Shown here piece by piece: positions 9,986 through 24,744 of a stretch of 41,477 bases of DNA (position 1 is its first letter; every line of letters begins with the position of its first letter). This DNA is from Bacteroidota bacterium (lineage in GTDB: Bacteria; Bacteroidota; Ignavibacteria; Kryptoniales; JAKASW01). The position numbers and the translations under genes are program-made. Location of the stretch: assembly GCA_021794075.1 (NCBI GenBank), contig JAJYRM010000025.1, positions 1 to 41,477 of the forward strand, given 5' to 3'. The notes under the pieces were generated by a model. It saw nothing but the letters and a program-made list of their open reading frames with translations. It was not told the origin of the DNA and made no database searches.

Positions 9986-10162
9986 GGCACACTGAATATT
10001 CCGAGCAGTCTTCCAGCCGATGTCGCCAATTAATTAATTGCAGATTGTAGGAAGGCGAAATTCCCCGAGCCGTCAACTCACAGGTCCACAGGCTTCTCTT
10101 CTCCTCGCCCCGCAGTCACCCCTTGTCCGCGTCTCCGGTCACCTTCTCCCCCTACACCTACC

Positions 10163-10191
10163 TTGTTTCTTGAGACATGCGCGGGTAAATT
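10163..10191 (+). promoter_or_regulatory. Putative promoter of the DUF2723 gene
   Basis: TTGTTT (10163-10168), a 17-nt spacer, then TAAATT (10186-10191), about 38 nt before the ATG at 10230. The -10 is identical to that proposed for tRNA-Arg. Support is by eye only. Confidence 0.35.
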
Positions 10192-10229
10192 GTGCGGACA
10201 TAAATTCCAATAAGTCAGGCGGGCTAACC

Positions 10230-12989
10230 ATGAACTTTAGGAAGTTAAACATTTACATCGCCGCGGCGATATTTGTCGTGACGTTGATTATGTATGCTGC
10301 AACCACACAATCGTCGGTTGCTTTCTGGGACTGCGGGGAGTTCGCGGCGACGGCGTACTCTATGGAAGTACCTCATCCCCCGGGCGCGCCGCTCTTCACG
10401 TTGATCGGACGCGTGGCGATGATGACTCCATTCGTCAGCGATCCTGGTTTCAGAATAAATCTGATTTCAGCGCTCGCGAGCGCGCTTACCATCATGTTCC
10501 TTTATTTGACGGGGGTGAGAGTAATTTCCCGGTGGAAGAATTTCCCTTCGAACACGATGGGCGCGATCGTAGTATTCGGCGCTTCGGCAATCGGCGCGCT
10601 CCTCTTTTCTGTTACGGACACATTCTGGTTCAACGCGGTTGAATCGGAAGTCTACGCGCTAAGCATGTTCATCGTGTCGTGCGTCATCTGGCTCGGCCTG
10701 GTCTGGTATGAAAAGGCCGACGAGCCCGGCAACGAGAAATACCTTCTCCTGATTGCTTATATGATGGGACTCTCCATCGGCATACATCAACTAAGCTTGC
10801 TCGCTTATTTTACGGTTGCTCTGTTTGTATACTTCAGGTATAACGAATTTAATCTCAAACGATTCATCTACTTCGGCGCCATAACCGTCCTTTCGTTCGG
10901 CATCATATACCCGGTTATAGTTGAGTGGCTGCCGGGAATACTGGACGGCGATGTCGAAATTGGTCCGTTGCATATTACGGAAAGCTTTTTGCTGCAGATC
11001 CTTCCTGTTGTGGTAGTGCTCGCGGCAATCTATGGCATATACAGATCGGAGAAAGAACACAGAAAGATTCTCAACGTATCACTTCTCGCCGTATTGTTCG
11101 TCATCCTCGGGTATTCCACCTACACGCTGATCATAGTACGCGCGAACGCCCACCCGCCCATAAACGAAAACAATCCGGACACGCTTGAAAGGCTCGTCAG
11201 CTATCTGAACCGCGAGCAATACGGCGTGCAGCCGTCCATATTCAACAGACGCTGGGATACCAACGATCCGTCTCACATGCAAAATTACCAGAACTATTCC
11301 TCTGACTGGGATTTCTTCGCGAAGTATCAGTTCGATCACATGTTCCTTCGCTATGTTGGCTGGAATTTCATTGGGCGGTCGGGAGACATTCAGGATGCGC
11401 CCGTGGCATTCGTGAATTCGCCTCAGGGATGGTTCGACGGGACGCGCGGTTACCCCGCCAGGTATTTTGCGATTCCGCTTTTCATAGCGCTTTTCGGCTT
11501 GTGGTACCATTTTAGAAAAGATTGGAAATTCGGACTCGCATTCCTAACGCTATTCATAGTCATGGGCCCCGCGCTCGCACTCTATTTCAACATGGCCCAA
11601 CCGCAGCCCAGGGAGCGTGATTATTTCTTTGTAGGCGCTTTCTTTGTCATGGCGCTCTGGATATCTATCGGCGTGTCGGGCATCCTTGAAATGATCGCTG
11701 ATTATCTCAAAGACAGGAAGACAAAACTCTACGCCACCGCGGCCCTCTCGCTCATCTTCTTCCTGATTCTCCCTTTCAACATGTTCGCGGAGAACCGTTT
11801 CAGTCACGACAGGAACGGCAACTATGTTCCGTTCGATTATTCATATAACATTCTCCAGTCCTGCAAAAAGAACGCGATCCTCTTTACGAACGGCGACAAC
11901 GATACGTTTCCTCTCTGGTACTTGCAGGAAGTAATGGGTGTAAGGACCGATATCAGAATAGTAAATCTCAGCCTCCTGAACACCGACTGGTATATACTGC
12001 AATTGAAAAACGAAACTCCGCATGGGGCAATGAAAGTACCCATAAGCATAAGCGACGGAACCATAAGAAGCATGGCGCCCGTTCAATGGAGCCCGACAAC
12101 GGTGCGCGTGCCCGTTCCGAAGGAAGTGTACGCCCAATTCGGCGTCACCGATACGTCGATCACCAACAAGGGTGCGATACAGTTCGTAATGAACCCGACA
12201 ATCGGCGGAGAAAACGTGGGCGGTGTCCGCGTTCAGGACCTTATAGTAAAGGACATCGTCGAAACCAGTAAATGGCAAAGGCCACTCTATTTCTCTGTCA
12301 CCGTTGCCAACAGCAATTTCATCGGGCTGGACAGGTACCTGCAGATGCAGGGGATGGCCTTGCAGGTAATGCCGTTCGAAATGCGATCTCCTGACGGGCA
12401 GTACCCGATTAACGCGCCTATAATGCGCCAATGTCTCTTCGATACTCCTTCAAAAGTATATATCGAGCCGCACTACGGGTTCAGGTTCACGAACCTGACA
12501 AATCCGAACGTGTATTACGACGACAACGCGCGCAGGCTGAGCCTCAACTACCGCAACCCGTTCATGCGCCTGGCTGTTTACGATCTCCAGCGCGGAGACA
12601 GCGCTGGTACAGTGGCAACGCTCAACCAGATGGAAGCGAAGATTCCAATAGAAGTTCTCCCAATAGATTACCGGATCCTTTCCGATGTCGCGAGGATTTA
12701 TCTGGTCGCAGGCGACAGGAAACAATATGAGAGGTACTCGGCCATCGTGGAACGCGATGCCCTGGCAGCGATAGAAAGGAACCCGATGGATGTCAGTTCA
12801 GCTTACAACCCGTACCGGATCCTCCTCGACATGTACGACATGCGACAGGATTATGGTAAGGAGATCGCCCTCTTGTCGAAACTGCAGTCGATTTTCCCTA
12901 ACGAGAAGGGCATCGGCTCGAGGATAAAACAGCTTCAGGCTCTGATGGCGGGAAGCGGCAAAGCGGAGGTTGACTCTCTCGGCAAATAG
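10230..12989 (+). CDS. DUF2723 membrane protein (TMEM260/O-mannosyltransferase-like)
   Basis: I start at ATG 10230. The reading frame extends 64 codons upstream, but that part is proline- and arginine-rich with no membrane character and overlaps the proposed promoter. The 919-residue product begins with the family signature: a first membrane helix, then SVAFWDCGEFAATAY and VPHPPGAPLF, resembling the catalytic Asp/Glu region of GT-C glycosyltransferases. About ten further hydrophobic helices reach residue ~520 (including NMAQPQPRERDYFF). A large soluble domain and a TPR-like C-terminus follow. The family is related to TMEM260, a protein O-mannosyltransferase; lipid-linked sugar transfer at the inner membrane is therefore an inference here. 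The methyltransferase and GT4 genes downstream are consistent with a glycosylation locus. Confidence 0.88.
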   Translation: MNFRKLNIYIAAAIFVVTLIMYAATTQSSVAFWDCGEFAATAYSMEVPHPPGAPLFTLIGRVAMMTPFVSDPGFRINLISALASALTIMFLYLTGVRVISRWKNFPSNTMGAIVVFGASAIGALLFSVTDTFWFNAVESEVYALSMFIVSCVIWLGLVWYEKADEPGNEKYLLLIAYMMGLSIGIHQLSLLAYFTVALFVYFRYNEFNLKRFIYFGAITVLSFGIIYPVIVEWLPGILDGDVEIGPLHITESFLLQILPVVVVLAAIYGIYRSEKEHRKILNVSLLAVLFVILGYSTYTLIIVRANAHPPINENNPDTLERLVSYLNREQYGVQPSIFNRRWDTNDPSHMQNYQNYSSDWDFFAKYQFDHMFLRYVGWNFIGRSGDIQDAPVAFVNSPQGWFDGTRGYPARYFAIPLFIALFGLWYHFRKDWKFGLAFLTLFIVMGPALALYFNMAQPQPRERDYFFVGAFFVMALWISIGVSGILEMIADYLKDRKTKLYATAALSLIFFLILPFNMFAENRFSHDRNGNYVPFDYSYNILQSCKKNAILFTNGDNDTFPLWYLQEVMGVRTDIRIVNLSLLNTDWYILQLKNETPHGAMKVPISISDGTIRSMAPVQWSPTTVRVPVPKEVYAQFGVTDTSITNKGAIQFVMNPTIGGENVGGVRVQDLIVKDIVETSKWQRPLYFSVTVANSNFIGLDRYLQMQGMALQVMPFEMRSPDGQYPINAPIMRQCLFDTPSKVYIEPHYGFRFTNLTNPNVYYDDNARRLSLNYRNPFMRLAVYDLQRGDSAGTVATLNQMEAKIPIEVLPIDYRILSDVARIYLVAGDRKQYERYSAIVERDALAAIERNPMDVSSAYNPYRILLDMYDMRQDYGKEIALLSKLQSIFPNEKGIGSRIKQLQALMAGSGKAEVDSLGK

Positions 12990-15159: not shown

Positions 15160-16074
15160 ATGAATAAAAGCCGGCCGATACAACGGAAGCTCTTCTACTC
15201 AATTTTCCTGAACGGCTTGATAGCGGTGACCGAATTGGTGGGAGGCGTCTTCTCAAACAGCTTCGCGCTGATCTCCGATGCTTTGCATAATTTCAGTGAC
15301 TTCATCGCCCTGATCGCAAGCTTCATCGCGTCGAAGATGATGTACTGGCAGAACAACGAAAAGAAATCGTACGGCTATTCCAGGGTCGAGATTCTTGCCG
15401 CGTTTTTGAACGCGATAGTGCTGGTCCTGATCGGCGCTTACATCATATACGAAGCACTGGCGAGACTATATTCACCGCAGGTTATCGAAGCAAGGCTCAT
15501 GGTTATCATTGCGGCAATCGGCTTCTTGGCCAACCTGATATCCGTTCTGCTCCTCCGCCCTCACAAAGACGAGAATCTCAACGCCAGGAGCGCGTTCCTT
15601 CATCTGGCCACCGACGCTCTGGAGTCCGCCGCGGTTATCGTAACGGCGATCCTTATTTCGATCTTCAAGGTTCATTACCTCGACGCGATTGTCTCAATCG
15701 CAATTGGGCTGCTGGTAATCAAGAGCTCATGGGATATACTGCTCGAATCCGCCAACATACTCACCGAGGGATCGCCTAAAGGGATCGACTTGAACGACGT
15801 GGCCGATTTCATCCGAGGGTTCCCGGAAGTGAAAGGAATTCATCACCTTCACATATGGAGCCTTTCCACCAACTTCAGAGCTCTCTCCGCGCATATTGTC
15901 GTGGAAGACACGCACATCAGTCGCACGATCGATCTTACCAACAAACTCGACAGCCAGCTGTACGACCGTTTCGGCATTAATCATCCTACGTTCCAGCTCG
16001 AAGCGAATCCATGCGAAGACACCCTCATATCACAATACCACGATCGCGAGCCACATGGAACCGACAAGAGATGA
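15160..16074 (+). CDS. Cation diffusion facilitator, zinc-type efflux transporter
   Basis: A 304-residue CDF antiporter of the ZitB/CzcD/ZnT type, exporting Zn2+ (possibly Co2+ or Cd2+) in exchange for protons. Six membrane helices are visible. The metal site is His43/Asp47 in SDALHNFSD and His148/Asp152 in LHLATDALES. The H-D-H-D arrangement is linked to zinc preference in this family. The C-terminal cytoplasmic domain begins near residue 205 (VKGIHHLHIWSL) and has further histidines typical of metal sensing. Its stop codon overlaps the start of the next gene by 4 bp (ATGA at 16071-16074), so the two are translationally coupled. Confidence 0.93.
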   Translation: MNKSRPIQRKLFYSIFLNGLIAVTELVGGVFSNSFALISDALHNFSDFIALIASFIASKMMYWQNNEKKSYGYSRVEILAAFLNAIVLVLIGAYIIYEALARLYSPQVIEARLMVIIAAIGFLANLISVLLLRPHKDENLNARSAFLHLATDALESAAVIVTAILISIFKVHYLDAIVSIAIGLLVIKSSWDILLESANILTEGSPKGIDLNDVADFIRGFPEVKGIHHLHIWSLSTNFRALSAHIVVEDTHISRTIDLTNKLDSQLYDRFGINHPTFQLEANPCEDTLISQYHDREPHGTDKR

Positions 16075-18971
16075 TAGATGAACCGCATGCAGTAGCGTCC
16101 GATCTAAGGAAGCGGGTTTCGGGGGAAATCCTTTTCGACGACATTTCCAGATCACTCTTCAGCACAGCGGCGTGCATGTACCAGGTGAGGCCGATGGGCA
16201 TCGTCGTACCTCGCTGCGTCGAGGACGTCGTGGAAACGTTGCGATACTGCAACGAACGCGGGATTCCGATAACGGGGCGCGGAGCCGGGACAAGCCTGGC
16301 AGGCCAATCGATTGGGAGCGGAATCATAATCGTCTTCAACAAGTATTTCCGCGACATAATCGAAATCGACCAAGATACGCGGACTGCTCGTGTTCAGCCG
16401 GGAGTAGTCCTTAGCGATCTAAACCGGTCGCTGGCAGGGCACAAACTTATGTTCGGCCCGGATCCATCGAGCGGCAAGCAATGCGTCATCGGAGGCATGA
16501 TCGGAACTAACGCCGCCGGCGCGCACACCGTCAAGTACGGCGCGACGAAGGACAACGTCGTCAGCTTGAGAGCCGTGACCGCCGATGGCGACATTATCGA
16601 AACGACACAGGCTGCAACCGACAGGTTTACTAAACAGCTTTCACCCCTCCTCGGGCCTTACCGCGATATAATTCTCAGCAAGTGGCCACGCTCGCCTAAG
16701 AACTCCTCGGGGTACAACCTTCGTGACGCGATTGGAGGGGCCGGCGTCGACCTCACCAAGCTTCTCTGCGGAAGCGAGGGGACGCTTGCTATGACGGTTG
16801 AGGCCACCCTGAAGCTGCTCCCCGCTCCTGTCGAGAGGAGAAACCTCATCGCGTACTTCCCCTCCTACGAAGCGTGCGCCGTCGCCGCAAGCGAGTCGTT
16901 GCAGTTCAATCCCGCGGCTGTGGAGATGATCGACAAAACTTTCGCTTCCGCCGCAATGGGGCTCGACCCGCTTATAGACCAAATACTCGGCGAAGATTTC
17001 GTATCCATAATCATATATGAGTTTGAAGAAGAAGAGAAAGGACTTGGCGACGACAAGGTAGTAAAACTCGCCGCGCACCTCAAAACCTTAGGCCTGCCGA
17101 GCAAAGTGATACATCCAAGGGACACAACGGAAGCCGCGAAACTTTGGCGAGTCAGGAAAGAAGCGTCGGCGATTTTCTATAAGATCGAAAAACCGGGCAA
17201 GAAGACCTCCTTCGTCGAAGATGTGGCAGTCCCGGTTGACAGATTGTCCGATTACCTCGCGATGGCGCAGAATATATTCAATAAACACGACGTGAAGTAC
17301 GCGCTCTATGGCCATGCCGGAAGCGGTAATACGCACGCGATCGTCCTGCTGGATCTCAAGGATAAGCGTCATCTCGCAAAGATCGACCCGATCGCGCGGG
17401 AGATCTATGAACTGTCGACGTCGCTGGGTGGCACGCTTAGCGGTGAGCACGGCGACGGCTTCCTGAGGACGCCTTTCCTGTCAAATTTATACGGCGATGA
17501 AATCTATTCCCTCTTCGGGAAGGTAAAGAATATTTTCGACCCAAACGGAATAATGAACCCAGGCAAGGTGGTCGGCGAGCAGGGCGCTTCCGTCGTCCAC
17601 GATCTGAGGTTCGGCGAGAGCTACCATAGGATTCAAACCGGAACTGCGCTCGACGAAGAGTCGACAGCCCACGAAATAGAAAAGTGCCACGGCTGCGGGA
17701 CATGCCTTAGCTATTGTCCGACCGCTCTAGTCACATTCGACGAACGCGCCACTCCGAGAGCGAAAGGAAACATACTTCGATCGATCATCGGCGGGGACCT
17801 CGACGCCTCTTACCTGGAAAAAGAAGATTTCAAGAGTGTTCTTGACTACTGCTTCAACTGCAAGATGTGTCTAACCGAGTGCCCGACACAAATAGACATC
17901 CCGGGAATTGTAATCGAGGCAAAAAACACTTTCCATGAAAAGACGGAGCCGAAGGCCCAGGACAAGTTTATTGACAGGCTCCCCACCCTCTCGGCCCTAG
18001 CCTCGATCACGCCGACGCTCGCAAATATCGCCTCTAGCATGAGCGTTGTCCGAAAGCCGCTCGAGCGATTCTTCGGAATTGACAGCCGCCGTAAGCTCCC
18101 TCATTTTCATAAACCTCTTTACAAACGAGTCAGGATAAACAGAGATACTCCGGACGCACAAAGAAGAGTAATCTATTTTTCGGGATGCTTTGCGAACTTC
18201 AATGACCCGATGGGCGAAGGGCTCTCCACAATCGAGATACTCAGGCGCAACGGCATAGACGTTCGCGTCCTTGACAGCCTGCGCTGCTGCGGCATCGCAA
18301 AGATAACCACTGGCCATAGAGACGCTGTAGTTGATGACGCCACGTGGAACGTTGCCGAACTCGCTAATTATGTCCGGCAGGGGTTTGACATAATTGCATC
18401 CGCCCCAAGCTGCGGACTGGCACTGAAGGAAGATTACCCGGATATCGTCGGCAATGAGGACGCGAGGCTGGTTTCGGATCATATTTTTGACCTTGCGGAC
18501 TATCTTTGGAGGCTTGCGGACGAAGGAAAATTGAATATGAACTTCGGTGAGGTGAAAAAGAGGGTCACGTACCACAACGCCTGCCATTCCACTCCAATGA
18601 ATGTGGTGCACCAGCCGATAGCCTTGATGAAGCTGGTTCCCGGTCTTGAAGTCGTTGAGCTTCAGGAGGACAGTTGCTGCGGCATGGCGGGAACGTTCGG
18701 ACTAAAGAAGCAGTTTTATGATATGTCTATGAAAGCGGGCGGGAACTTGTTTGAGCAAATCAGAGAAGCGAAGATCGATTCAGTGGTTACGACTTGCGGG
18801 ACTTGTAACATGCAGATCGTGCAGGGGACAGGCCAACATGTCGAGCACCTGGCAAAGATCCTCGGCGATTCATACCGCGCCTACGACAGATTGGGAGCGC
18901 CGCGATCTCCGCGAAACATCCAAAAGGTTGAAGAGGCACCTGCAAACGGCGGCGCTGGAATGATAGAATAA
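16071..18971 (+). CDS. FAD-linked oxidase fused to Fe-S/CCG domains (D-2-hydroxyglutarate/D-lactate dehydrogenase-like, YdiJ type)
   Basis: The start is ATG 16071, overlapping the transporter stop by 4 bp; an in-frame ATG at 16011 lies inside that gene. The 966-residue protein has a PCMH-type FAD domain (GRGAGTSLAGQS near residue 69, GGMIGTNAAGAHTVKYGA near 143-160), then an FAD-oxidase C-terminal domain with GEHGDGF. Two 4Fe-4S motifs begin near residue 538 (CHGCGTCLSYCP and CFNCKMCLTECP). Two cysteine-rich CCG modules follow (CCGIAK near 739, CCGMAG near 869). This matches the YdiJ/GlpC-fusion class, which oxidises a D-2-hydroxyacid and passes electrons through Fe-S centres to quinone or another carrier. 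The exact substrate (D-lactate, D-2-hydroxyglutarate or glycolate) is not decidable from sequence. Confidence 0.93.
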   Translation: MIDEPHAVASDLRKRVSGEILFDDISRSLFSTAACMYQVRPMGIVVPRCVEDVVETLRYCNERGIPITGRGAGTSLAGQSIGSGIIIVFNKYFRDIIEIDQDTRTARVQPGVVLSDLNRSLAGHKLMFGPDPSSGKQCVIGGMIGTNAAGAHTVKYGATKDNVVSLRAVTADGDIIETTQAATDRFTKQLSPLLGPYRDIILSKWPRSPKNSSGYNLRDAIGGAGVDLTKLLCGSEGTLAMTVEATLKLLPAPVERRNLIAYFPSYEACAVAASESLQFNPAAVEMIDKTFASAAMGLDPLIDQILGEDFVSIIIYEFEEEEKGLGDDKVVKLAAHLKTLGLPSKVIHPRDTTEAAKLWRVRKEASAIFYKIEKPGKKTSFVEDVAVPVDRLSDYLAMAQNIFNKHDVKYALYGHAGSGNTHAIVLLDLKDKRHLAKIDPIAREIYELSTSLGGTLSGEHGDGFLRTPFLSNLYGDEIYSLFGKVKNIFDPNGIMNPGKVVGEQGASVVHDLRFGESYHRIQTGTALDEESTAHEIEKCHGCGTCLSYCPTALVTFDERATPRAKGNILRSIIGGDLDASYLEKEDFKSVLDYCFNCKMCLTECPTQIDIPGIVIEAKNTFHEKTEPKAQDKFIDRLPTLSALASITPTLANIASSMSVVRKPLERFFGIDSRRKLPHFHKPLYKRVRINRDTPDAQRRVIYFSGCFANFNDPMGEGLSTIEILRRNGIDVRVLDSLRCCGIAKITTGHRDAVVDDATWNVAELANYVRQGFDIIASAPSCGLALKEDYPDIVGNEDARLVSDHIFDLADYLWRLADEGKLNMNFGEVKKRVTYHNACHSTPMNVVHQPIALMKLVPGLEVVELQEDSCCGMAGTFGLKKQFYDMSMKAGGNLFEQIREAKIDSVVTTCGTCNMQIVQGTGQHVEHLAKILGDSYRAYDRLGAPRSPRNIQKVEEAPANGGAGMIE

Positions 18972-20646: not shown

Positions 20647-23178
20647 TTATGTTTCGCTTTCGATCTTGAACTGTGCTGTAGATGCCTGTATCTCATCCGC
20701 AAGCTCGGAAAGTCCAGTCGCGATTGACCCAACTTCCTGAGCTTCCCTGGCAGCCTGGACCGTATTGCCGGATATTTCATTTATGGTGTCGGCATTCGCC
20801 TTGCTTATCTCGGCAACGTTGTTAATCATCTCAACCGTGTGCTTCACACCCGAGCTGAGCTCCTCCGTAGCGCTCATGTTCTGGTCCACGACGGCAGATA
20901 TTTTCTCGATTGATTTCAATAGCCCCGCCATCGTCTTGACAACGACATTGTTGGCCGTGGCAAGCACATCAACCTGCTTATTCATGTTTTCTGAAGAAGA
21001 GAGAAGCTTGCTTATCGCTTTGCCGGATTCGGTTGCGAGCCTGCTACCTTCATTAACCTTCTCGACGATGGATTGCACAGACTTACTCGCGTCCGCTATA
21101 TCCTCTTCGACCTTGTTTATCAAACCGGACGTTTCTTTCGTTGCGGCAGCGGAGCGCTCCGCAAGGTTTCTTACCTCATCGGCGACAACGGCGAAACCGC
21201 GACCGTGATCCCCGGCCCTGGCAGCTTCTATGGCGGCATTGAGGGCCAGAAGGTTAGTTTGTTCCGCTATCTCCTCGATATTTTCTATAATTCCCTCGAT
21301 CTGTGCAGACTGCCTGGCCATCCCCTCGATCTTCGATGCGAAGGCAGCTACGGTCTCCTCGATCCTCTTCATTTGTTCGAGATTCTCCATCACGGCGCTC
21401 GCGCCCGCTTTCGACACGCTTATAGCTTCTGTCGCGGCAGATACCACTGTGTTGGCGCTCGAGTTTGCCGAATTTATTGCCCTAGATATTTCTACAGCGG
21501 AGAACGAGACGTTGTCTACAGCGAGTTTCTGATCGTGAGAATCTCTCGCGATTGTGTCGATGGCAGCGGCGATCTGCTCCATATTCGCGTTCGCATTGCT
21601 GATCGACAGCGCTTCGTCGTTAAGGCTCTTCGCCATCGTTTGAATCGTGCTGGAATTGTAATTGGTTACGCCCGCGGACTGCTGCGCGGTACCCGCAAGA
21701 TCGTGGCTGAGGCTCAGAAGTTTCTTCGATCTTCCTGCCAGCGTGCCGAATATCCCGCGCAGACTGAGAGGCTCGCTGTTAAACGTCGAAACCACTATCC
21801 CACTCTCCACTGCCCCGTTGAGGTACGGGACGACATTCCTGTCAAAAACGCCGACACTTATCGCATCATATCTCTTCCTGATGCAGTCCTCGATTGCCGG
21901 CCTGTAGATGTCCGCGCTCACGTTGACGACACCGTTTACAAATTGGCCTTTGGGAATGATCCAATCGACAATGCCGTTGAAGTTCCTAAGCTCTCTTGTC
22001 GCCAAGTCCACACCTGCTTTGAAAGTGTCCCAAAATCGATCACCCTTCCTTCCCAACACGGCTATGTGGATTATCCTGTCCGATTTTTTTATCGGCTTAG
22101 GTCTTCTTGCGGCCGTGGCCGGCGTCTCTATAATTCCCCTCCCTGGCTCCCAGAATTGAGAATAATTTTCAGGAGTCACCAGGTCCATGTTTGTAAGAAG
22201 CCTCGGCTGCTGCGGAGCCCAGTTTGCAGTAATTTTGTTGAACATGTGTATTACCGGGTCATGCCCCTGTGCAAACACGTCCTGAGAAAGGGTCACAGTA
22301 ACGATACCCTTTTTAACGTATTCCATCGTTTTGTCGACGAGGTCGTGACAAACTATTTTCACCGATCCGGATTTACCCGATTCTTCGACGGCTTTGGCAA
22401 CGGGCGCGCCTCCATAGGTTATATAGATTCCCGCGAGATCGTGGTGTCTCTTCAACAAACTCTTTGTTAGATCGCACGCGACTTCAAAGTTCAAATTCGT
22501 CTCGAGCACTTCCTCGATCGAGATTGACGGATACTTTTCGCGCAGCAGATTCTGGAATCCCTTCCGCCTCAGGTCGTGTCCGATAATGTTAAACTTCTCG
22601 ATGAGTATTGCTACCTTGCCCTTTCCCTTGAGGGCCTTCCCCATCGCCTCGCCGCAAGCCTGTCCTTCCAGATAAGAGTCGGCGCCGACGTAGACAAATC
22701 TCTGCAAAGGCTTATCCGTTGCCGTGTTCAACTCTTTGCTCGCATCGCCGAGATGCCCGATTATTGAATTCAAGCCGCGTACCACTTCGCCCACGTGGCC
22801 GTTCACCGAAGAATTCAGCGGGTCCGTTTCAAGTTTGATGCTCGCGGTAAGATTGCCATGAGCCATCTCTGTCAATGCGGCCGATAAGGAAATGAAATCT
22901 CTTTCGGCCATTTTCTTAACCTTGCTTGAAAGGAGTTTCAAAGGAACGACAAGAGTCGAGTTTAGGTAAACTGCAAGTGCAACGACAACAATCAAGCTCC
23001 CCAGGATCCCGGCAGTGAGCATCAATCTGGCATCTGAGCCGTAGCTCGCGCCCGACTTGACGAGAAGAGCCGTAAGCTCCCAGTACCCTGTCACCTCCAC
23101 CAAGAAAAGTGCGAGGATAAGGATTATTCCCGCATGAAGGGAGTATTCCTTTAAAAGCTTGCTAATTGATTTCAGCAT
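20647..23178 (-). CDS. Methyl-accepting chemotaxis protein with an internal, apparently circularly permuted sugar-binding-protein-like domain
   Basis: An 843-residue chemoreceptor. Two membrane helices (about 14-36 and 52-72) are joined by only ~15 residues, so there is no periplasmic sensor. A HAMP-like linker (about 73-156) follows. Residues 159-345 look like the second lobe of an RbsB/LacI-type binding protein ([40 protein letters not shown] at its usual C-terminus). Residues 367-474 then look like the first lobe ([30 protein letters not shown]). The lobes are in reversed order, a circular permutation cut at the hinge. The signalling hairpin is at 628-665 ([20 protein letters not shown]). 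The sensor should face the cytoplasm. AAGGTG precedes ATG 23178. The ligand is unknown. Confidence 0.88.
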
Positions 23179-23796: not shown

Positions 23797-24744
23797 ATGG
23801 AACAGGAGCTTGGAAGGCAGCTCGTCCTGGACGAGCTGTTTGACCTTACACTTTACAAGAAGATCAGGCAGATCGTGTCCGAAGATCTCAAGCCTCTGTT
23901 CGATGAACTCATCCCGACCGAAGCAAAGCACCTGAGATTCTGGCAGGAGTTCTACTCACTTAATATCAACGAACTCGATTTCAGGCGAAGGGTGAAGTTG
24001 TCGGTGCTGGTTTCGGTCGCGCGTCTCTTCGGGAATCTAGGAACTCATCTCGTGCTCGAAGCCATCGAAGTCTACGGTGTGAGGAAGTACGTGACCGTCT
24101 GGAACAAATACAAGGGAACGCCAACAGGCAACGCGGTGCATAAAATTCTTGAGGATGAATTCCAGCACGAGGATGAAATCGTCTCATCGGCGAGCAAAAG
24201 GCTGATCCATCCGGAACGTGTAAGAGATATTTTTCTAGGACTTAACGACGGACTCGTCGAGATTCTCGGGGCGGTATCCGGTTTCTTCGCGGCGTTATCG
24301 AGCGTACCCGCGGTCATGGCCGCGAGTGTCGCTGTGGCGGTTGCCGGCTCGATCTCCATGGCGGCGGGCGCATTCGGCGCCATCAATTCGGAAAAGGAAG
24401 TCGAGCGGGTCGACGCGGCAAAGAAGGAATTCATCGATGGAAAACCAGGCGAGATCTCCGCTTCCTCCTCAACCGCCGCGGAATCTGCCCTCGTCGTCGG
24501 CTTGTCGTACTTTTTCGGCGCTCTGGTGCCGGTGCTCCCGGTGTTATTGGGAGCGGTCAATATCTGGTGGTCCCTCGGCTTCGCGGCGGTTGTCATGGTC
24601 TTCATCTCTACCGTAATTGCGTTCCTGTCCGGAATGAAGATGCGGCGAAGAATCGTGACGAACCTAATCATCCTGCTCATTGCCGTGGCTGTAACCTACG
24701 GTGTCGGCCTTCTCGCAAGGTCGATCTTCGGAATAAGCATCTGA
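23797..24744 (+). CDS. Ferritin-like domain fused to VIT1/CCC1-type iron transporter (MbfA/EVIT-like)
   Basis: A 315-residue protein. The N-terminal ~130 residues form a rubrerythrin/ferritin-like helical domain with likely iron ligands Glu42/His45 (TEAKHLRFW) and Glu121/His124 (EDEFQHEDE). The C-terminal part is a VIT1-family transporter starting at RVRDIFLGLNDGLVEILGAVSG (its first 20 residues are diagnostic), with five membrane helices. Fusions of this type (MbfA, erythrin-VIT) export Fe2+ or Mn2+ and protect against iron-driven oxidative stress. ATG 23797 follows AAGG with 6-nt spacing. The gene stands alone; 199 bp downstream is the convergent cfa gene. Confidence 0.9.
   Translation: MEQELGRQLVLDELFDLTLYKKIRQIVSEDLKPLFDELIPTEAKHLRFWQEFYSLNINELDFRRRVKLSVLVSVARLFGNLGTHLVLEAIEVYGVRKYVTVWNKYKGTPTGNAVHKILEDEFQHEDEIVSSASKRLIHPERVRDIFLGLNDGLVEILGAVSGFFAALSSVPAVMAASVAVAVAGSISMAAGAFGAINSEKEVERVDAAKKEFIDGKPGEISASSSTAAESALVVGLSYFFGALVPVLPVLLGAVNIWWSLGFAAVVMVFISTVIAFLSGMKMRRRIVTNLIILLIAVAVTYGVGLLARSIFGISI

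Follow-up and report, generated by a model that had tools for sequence, protein, structure and literature searches.

The 41,477-nucleotide stretch of DNA analysed here (the window) probably encodes a chemoreceptor with a cytoplasmic, circularly permuted Venus-flytrap sensor, which follows a HAMP-like coil, precedes the MCP hairpin and works as proposed below. The open reading frame starts with ATG and encodes 843 amino acids; its coordinates, strand and length agreed between the preliminary description and the ORF list. The domain layout and the putative pocket residues are collected in Table 1. The MCP signalling coil that had been placed at the end of the protein was recovered by Pfam (MCPsignal, PF00015, aa 589-763, 137 bits, E 8e-40; cut-off 34.6).

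Table 1. Predicted features of the receptor gene, with positions in the window
Feature	Residues	Positions	Strand	Basis
Whole gene: probable chemoreceptor, circularly permuted type-I binding-protein domain in the cytoplasm		20647..23178	-	ORF list and Pfam
TM helix 1	~9-34	23077..23154	-	Kyte-Doolittle windows
TM helix 2	~52-73	22960..23025	-	Kyte-Doolittle windows
HAMP-like linker and entry helix	~84-152	22723..22929	-	Sub-threshold PF00672 matches; helix in AlphaFold2 model
First permuted piece	159-348	22135..22704	-	PF13407 profile 94-244; 2qvc 91-257; model
R204 (RbsB R141 / MglB R158)	204	22567..22569	-	Invariant, 29/29
H278-D279 (RbsB F214-D215 / MglB D236)	278-279	22342..22347	-	Both invariant, 29/29
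Q299 (RbsB Q235 / MglB N256)	299	22282..22284	-	28/29
Inter-lobe linker (native C-terminus to native N-terminus)	~349-366	22081..22134	-	MglB/RbsB alignment
Second permuted piece: N-lobe strands 1-4, ending in conserved FNSEP at the pocket	367-471	21766..22080	-	PF13407 profile 5-89; 2qvc 3-92
F382-W383 (RbsB F15-F16 stacking pair)	382-383	22030..22035	-	F 29/29, W 28/29
N467 (RbsB D89 / MglB N91)	467	21778..21780	-	N in 28/29
Exit helix and N-terminal arm of MCP hairpin	472-641	21256..21765	-	Model; family alignment
MCP hairpin tip ([15 protein letters not shown]...) and C-terminal arm	642-843	20650..21255	-	PF00015, E 8e-40

RbsB/LacI-type proteins normally run from the N-lobe to the C-lobe. 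In the receptor, the Peripla_BP_4 profile (PF13407) matched in two stretches (E 4e-30, 106-113 bits over both lobes; Pfam cut-off 35.1) and in reversed order, with profile positions 94-244 at aa 159-306 and positions 5-89 at approximately aa 376-470. The same order was obtained when the halves were searched singly, as aa 153-344 matched profile positions 95-244 (E 1.5e-25) and aa 364-490 matched positions 5-89 (E 4e-6). Re-joining the two pieces in the normal order yielded a single PF13407 match covering positions 5-244 (120.3 bits), whereas in the same control the native order left the match split in two (113.0 bits). We regard this control as strong evidence for circular permutation of the sugar-binding-protein fold, as the preliminary description had proposed. 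Furthermore, a family profile of 15 members was aligned with the Thermotoga glucose-binding protein (2qvc/2h3h) at an overall E of 3e-38 for 2qvc. Residues 3-92 of the 2qvc chain corresponded to the second half of the domain (i-E 1.3e-6) and residues 91-257 to the first half (i-E 7.5e-29), and the earlier assignment of aa 367-474 to the N-lobe agrees with both the Pfam profile and this alignment. The complementary coverage meets at residues 91-92 with practically no residue lost at the join, which indicates that the new ends are neighbours in the parent chain.

The structure of aa 155-482 was predicted with AlphaFold2 using 15 family sequences. One compact domain was obtained (mean pLDDT 90.7, pTM 0.87), rather than two separate complete folds. 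A longer run (aa 95-540) returned the same domain, with flanking helices that were of low confidence and poorly defined. Foldseek and VIA-align, which are sequential aligners and not permutation-aware, placed model residues 1-203 on the last two thirds of the chain in ordinary sugar-binding proteins, including 2h3h 73-302 (Z 25.9) and 3c6q 94-301 (rmsd 2.2); the best fit among the ordinary binding proteins covered 188 residues (Z 27.5, rmsd 2.0). A sequential fit limited to about the first 200 residues is what a permuted chain predicts. TpMglB-2 (Tp0684) of Treponema pallidum, a naturally permuted type-I sugar-binding protein assigned to 'type Ic / cluster Bc' (PMC4990184; PDB 5jx2, 6bgc, 6bgd), was matched over nearly the full length of the model (366 columns, TMq 0.58, TMt 0.53, rmsd 5.6). 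The model confidence, a pocket shared by both pieces and the match to TpMglB-2 support the prediction that the two pieces assemble as one two-lobed domain.

To locate the cut, re-joined family sequences were aligned with RbsB and MglB as encoded in the E. coli K-12 genome. The cut lies between the strand that ends in FFNKEP in MglB (TFNSEP here, aa 465-470) and the strand AYYVGTDS of MglB (FVYVGADS here, aa 161-168). We take the first lobe crossing of the fold to come at the end of the latter strand. By this alignment, the cut falls outside the hinge, in the loop that connects strands 4 and 5 of the N-lobe and shortly before the first lobe crossing, so the entry and exit helices would both attach to the N-lobe and leave the C-lobe free to move. 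The preliminary description had set the cut at the interlobe hinge, with both coiled coils leaving from there; this part has to be revised, as both emerge on the side of the hinge that belongs to the N-lobe. With both helices on one lobe, lobe closure would not simply pull the coils apart, as pictured previously. The composition of the first piece also needs adjustment. It comprises N-lobe strand 5, the C-lobe, the last N-lobe strand and the native C-terminal ending, which is MglB-like (PENYSQFW versus KDNLAEFSKK) and is followed by approximately 18 linker residues to native strand 1. Its description as a C-lobe with a normal C-terminal ending (aa 159-345) is therefore right about the ending, but the piece begins with an N-lobe strand that precedes the first lobe crossing.

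MCPs are dimers, and a linker of approximately 18 residues joins the lobes while both helices sit on the N-lobe. These features would suit a trans arrangement in a parallel dimer, in which each C-lobe closes on the N-lobe of the partner chain to form swapped flytraps, with the inter-lobe linker serving this purpose and the sensor reading the state of the dimer as well as the ligand. However, the lobes come together in cis in the single-chain model, which has high confidence (as a monomer prediction it is blind to trans pairing), and we consider a trans arrangement improbable.

The permuted plan recurs in at least 29 relatives across several groups of bacteria. When homologues were counted by domain order, all 29 aligned members, drawn from the genus of the window, Melioribacter, an Acidobacteria MAG and one further phylum, showed C-lobe piece, linker, N-lobe piece and MCP hairpin in the same permuted succession. 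A scan of the genome collection recovered 14 full relatives (40-74% identity in the best segment) from Bacteroidetes/Kryptoniota-labelled MAGs, two Melioribacter, one Acidobacteria MAG (three loci) and one unclassified bacterium. The receptor was present in 8 of 13 genomes of the genus of the window and in 3 of 395 genomes in the sample of its phylum, all three within that genus. Further samples yielded it in 12 of 390 genomes in the class of the Melioribacter genome, in one genome, which has four copies, among the 396 from the phylum of the Acidobacteria MAG, and in 10 of 82 genomes in the phylum of the unclassified bacterium, with up to four paralogues per genome. Receptors of this last phylum (loci L077, L080, L084, L085, L087, L089 and others) have a hairpin that is four heptads shorter per arm. 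No relative was found in the viral contigs searched, and we found no published study of any of the relatives. In a tree with 11 ordinary type-I domains, the 29 members formed one side of a branch with support of 100/99, which is consistent with a single origin of the permuted family.

Two unrelated half-domains that were fused by chance and fold separately would give two separate Pfam matches when the native order is read, as is seen here. Nevertheless, the two halves cover complementary parts of a single profile and of the same known proteins, one PF13407 match is restored on re-joining, the model is a single compact domain and the order is kept in every aligned member. A chance fusion thus appears very improbable.

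The position of the domain relative to the membrane was assessed from hydropathy. The two N-terminal helices are separated by approximately 17-20 residues in Kyte-Doolittle windows, in agreement with the earlier observation that they have almost no periplasmic loop; judged from its length, the loop offers no room for an outside sensor. No TM-like hydropathy occurs after TM2 in any of the 29 members, and lysine-rich stretches flank the pair, one upstream of TM1 and one downstream of TM2. Furthermore, two receptors from the Acidobacteria MAG (L041:2949-5192 and L042:3707-5929) have no TM helix and are fully soluble versions. The MCP tip must contact CheA/CheW in the cytoplasm. Given that no TM segment lies between the sensor and a tip that must meet cytoplasmic CheA, we conclude that the sensor is cytoplasmic, as previously suggested. 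The stretch ahead of the sensor weakly resembles HAMP, although its matches to PF00672 (E 0.003-0.2; 15.1 bits for the window protein and 18.2 for the best relative) stay below the Pfam cut-off of 25, and we therefore retain the term HAMP-like only. Binding proteins of this family usually occur outside the cytoplasm (PMC9602780), which would favour a periplasmic sensor. We consider such a location scarcely conceivable here, since both TM helices precede the domain and none follows, the domain shares its side of the membrane with the MCP tip, and the lysine-rich stretches and the two relatives without TM helices argue against it as well.

The genome of the window contains six CheW-domain matches, two of them in CheA-sized ORFs, and two flagellin matches. 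Outside the window, it carries a further chemosensory cluster (G000:C210:22956-31441) with a CheW domain in a 718-aa (CheA-sized) ORF, CheW, a 612-aa ORF that resembles an MCP and, at 1108 aa, an ORF containing an MCP domain. In the neighbourhood of the receptor gene are genes for an MFS transporter, an FAD/Fe-S oxidoreductase, a VIT-family protein and a cyclopropane synthase. Only the VIT-family and cyclopropane-synthase-like genes are common to the relatives, and only among close ones. The neighbourhood gave no ligand clue, with no sugar genes adjoining, and a promoter scan did not find a sigma-70-type site. The VIT-family protein (23797-24744, plus strand) has an N-terminal extension of approximately 140 aa, and its gene adjoins the receptor gene only in close relatives. 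At 16011-18971 (plus strand), the window encodes a 986-aa protein in which an FAD-linked oxidase (FAD_binding_4, FAD-oxidase_C) is fused to a 4Fe-4S domain and two CCG cysteine-rich domains, and a 983-aa TMEM260-like (protein O-mannosyltransferase-like) protein is encoded at 10038-12989 (plus strand), upstream of a methyltransferase and a glycosyltransferase.

Pocket positions were mapped with a contact list that we took to be that of the RbsB ribose complex. The conserved positions (Table 1) come from both pieces and are kept down to 39% identity, and the letter at W383, N467 and H278 differs from that of RbsB. About half of the RbsB/MglB ligand contacts are kept and invariant and the rest are lost; the family varies at the equivalents of RbsB N64, F164, I132 and N190. 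Conservation exceeded that of random positions for the RbsB contact set (p 0.011) and marginally for the MglB set (p 0.058). MglB N91, the equivalent of N467, is a glucose contact (PMC4990184 Table 2). Together, the sequences suggest that a small polar ligand is likely, and the loss of the N64, N190 and F164 equivalents means that it may not be a typical sugar. We infer that the receptor senses a sugar or polyol on the cytoplasmic side and signals to CheA. These lost positions and the absence of sugar genes next to the receptor gene would also fit a permuted domain that no longer binds a small ligand and acts as a structural or protein-docking module, e.g., for a cytoplasmic enzyme or transporter subunit. 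Such a module seems unlikely, as F382, W383, N467, R204, H278, D279 and Q299, contributed by both lobes, are invariant or nearly so at the identities covered.

No indel was found at the entry (aa 128-163) or at the exit (aa 440-505) in the 29 members; length varies elsewhere, in domain loops, in the inter-lobe linker (1-2 residues) and in the HAMP-like connector. N467 is separated from the hairpin tip by exactly 175 or 147 aa, and the tip from the C-terminal Phe by 195 or 167 aa, with one member ending early at a contig end. The hairpin arms of the two subgroups thus differ by the same 28 aa, i.e., four heptads, and symmetric arm indels are a known signature of functional MCP hairpins. In the model, the exit helix begins at aa 472, approximately four residues after N467 and immediately behind the strand at the pocket edge, with low confidence along the helix. 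Direct coupling from the pocket to the hairpin is plausible because the junctions are free of indels and N467 is close to the exit helix.

Starting from the observed domain order, its conservation across the family, the position relative to the TM segments, the fixed junction lengths and the conserved pocket positions, we propose how ligand, closure, helix shift and CheA output might be connected. The native ends would have been joined by a short linker and new ends opened in the strand 4-5 loop beside the pocket. The entry and exit helices would then lie side by side on the N-lobe, such that a single loop suffices to splice the flytrap into a parallel coiled coil and the C-lobe hangs free. 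A small molecule from the cytoplasm, probably a sugar, a polyol or a related metabolite, would bind between the lobes, and the free C-lobe would close on the N-lobe, onto strand 4 (N467). Since both helices sit on one lobe, the signal would have to arise either as strain at the edge formed by strands 4 and 5 or where the C-lobe touches the coil or the partner chain. The strand that carries N467 and FNSEP (strand 4) may move relative to strand 5, by which the exit and entry helices would shift mutually or the exit helix would rotate. This shift might run down the hairpin and change CheA activity, with the TM pair serving as an anchor and not as a sensor.

Several known systems resemble parts of this receptor. 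In TpMglB-2, a new connection links the native C-terminus to the native N-terminus, and the protein binds glucose and changes shape on binding (PMC4990184). It shares the permuted type-I fold with the present domain, but is cut before N-lobe strand 4, with the equivalent of MglB N91 at N19 near its N-terminus (PMC4990184), whereas the receptor appears to be cut after strand 4, with N467 in the C-terminal piece. Natural permutation of the fold is thus already known, and the alignment places a second cut site here, one strand later. In addition, TpMglB-2 is an extracytoplasmic lipoprotein, probably an ABC-transporter component, with no receptor part and no close sequence relation to the receptor. 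Ordinary CUT2-type proteins (2h3h/2qvc, RbsB and MglB; PF13407) have the fold, the family profile and several pocket residues in common with the receptor domain, but they run from N-lobe to C-lobe and are separate periplasmic proteins, which dock on the outer side of a receptor or ABC transporter.

Binding-protein domains are known as sensors of signalling proteins (PMC9602780). In BT1754 (2x7x), a hybrid two-component sensor that was among the fold matches of the model, a type-I fructose-binding domain is likewise fused to a signalling protein, although this domain is periplasmic and unpermuted. Cytoplasmic sensors, e.g., PAS domains, are known from membrane-anchored and fully cytoplasmic MCPs (PMC9680633). 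These MCPs also have the sensor on the cytoplasmic side, an MCP hairpin as output and soluble variants; in the present receptor, by contrast, the sensor is a permuted two-lobed flytrap, with the HAMP-like coil on one side and the hairpin on the other. In the open-access papers searched, we found no chemoreceptor described as having a permuted binding-protein domain.

It is an even call whether the permutation is an adaptation for in-line signalling, in which a flytrap, with both ends moved to one loop at the edge of the pocket and set into a continuous receptor coil, would pass the ligand contact at strand 4 (N467) directly and at a fixed heptad phase into the MCP helix. Such receptors would form a class of chemoreceptors that sense metabolites in the cytoplasm. 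As a rule, chemoreceptors receive the signal of two-lobed binding proteins from outside the cytoplasm, and chain rearrangements of this kind are used by protein engineers for biosensors. The receptor family described here appears to place the flytrap clamp inside the cell and within the receptor itself. The fixed distance from a pocket residue to the tip would offer a simple case for how ligand binding becomes helix movement. If the clamp binds a metabolite, these bacteria would steer by an internal sugar-like signal.
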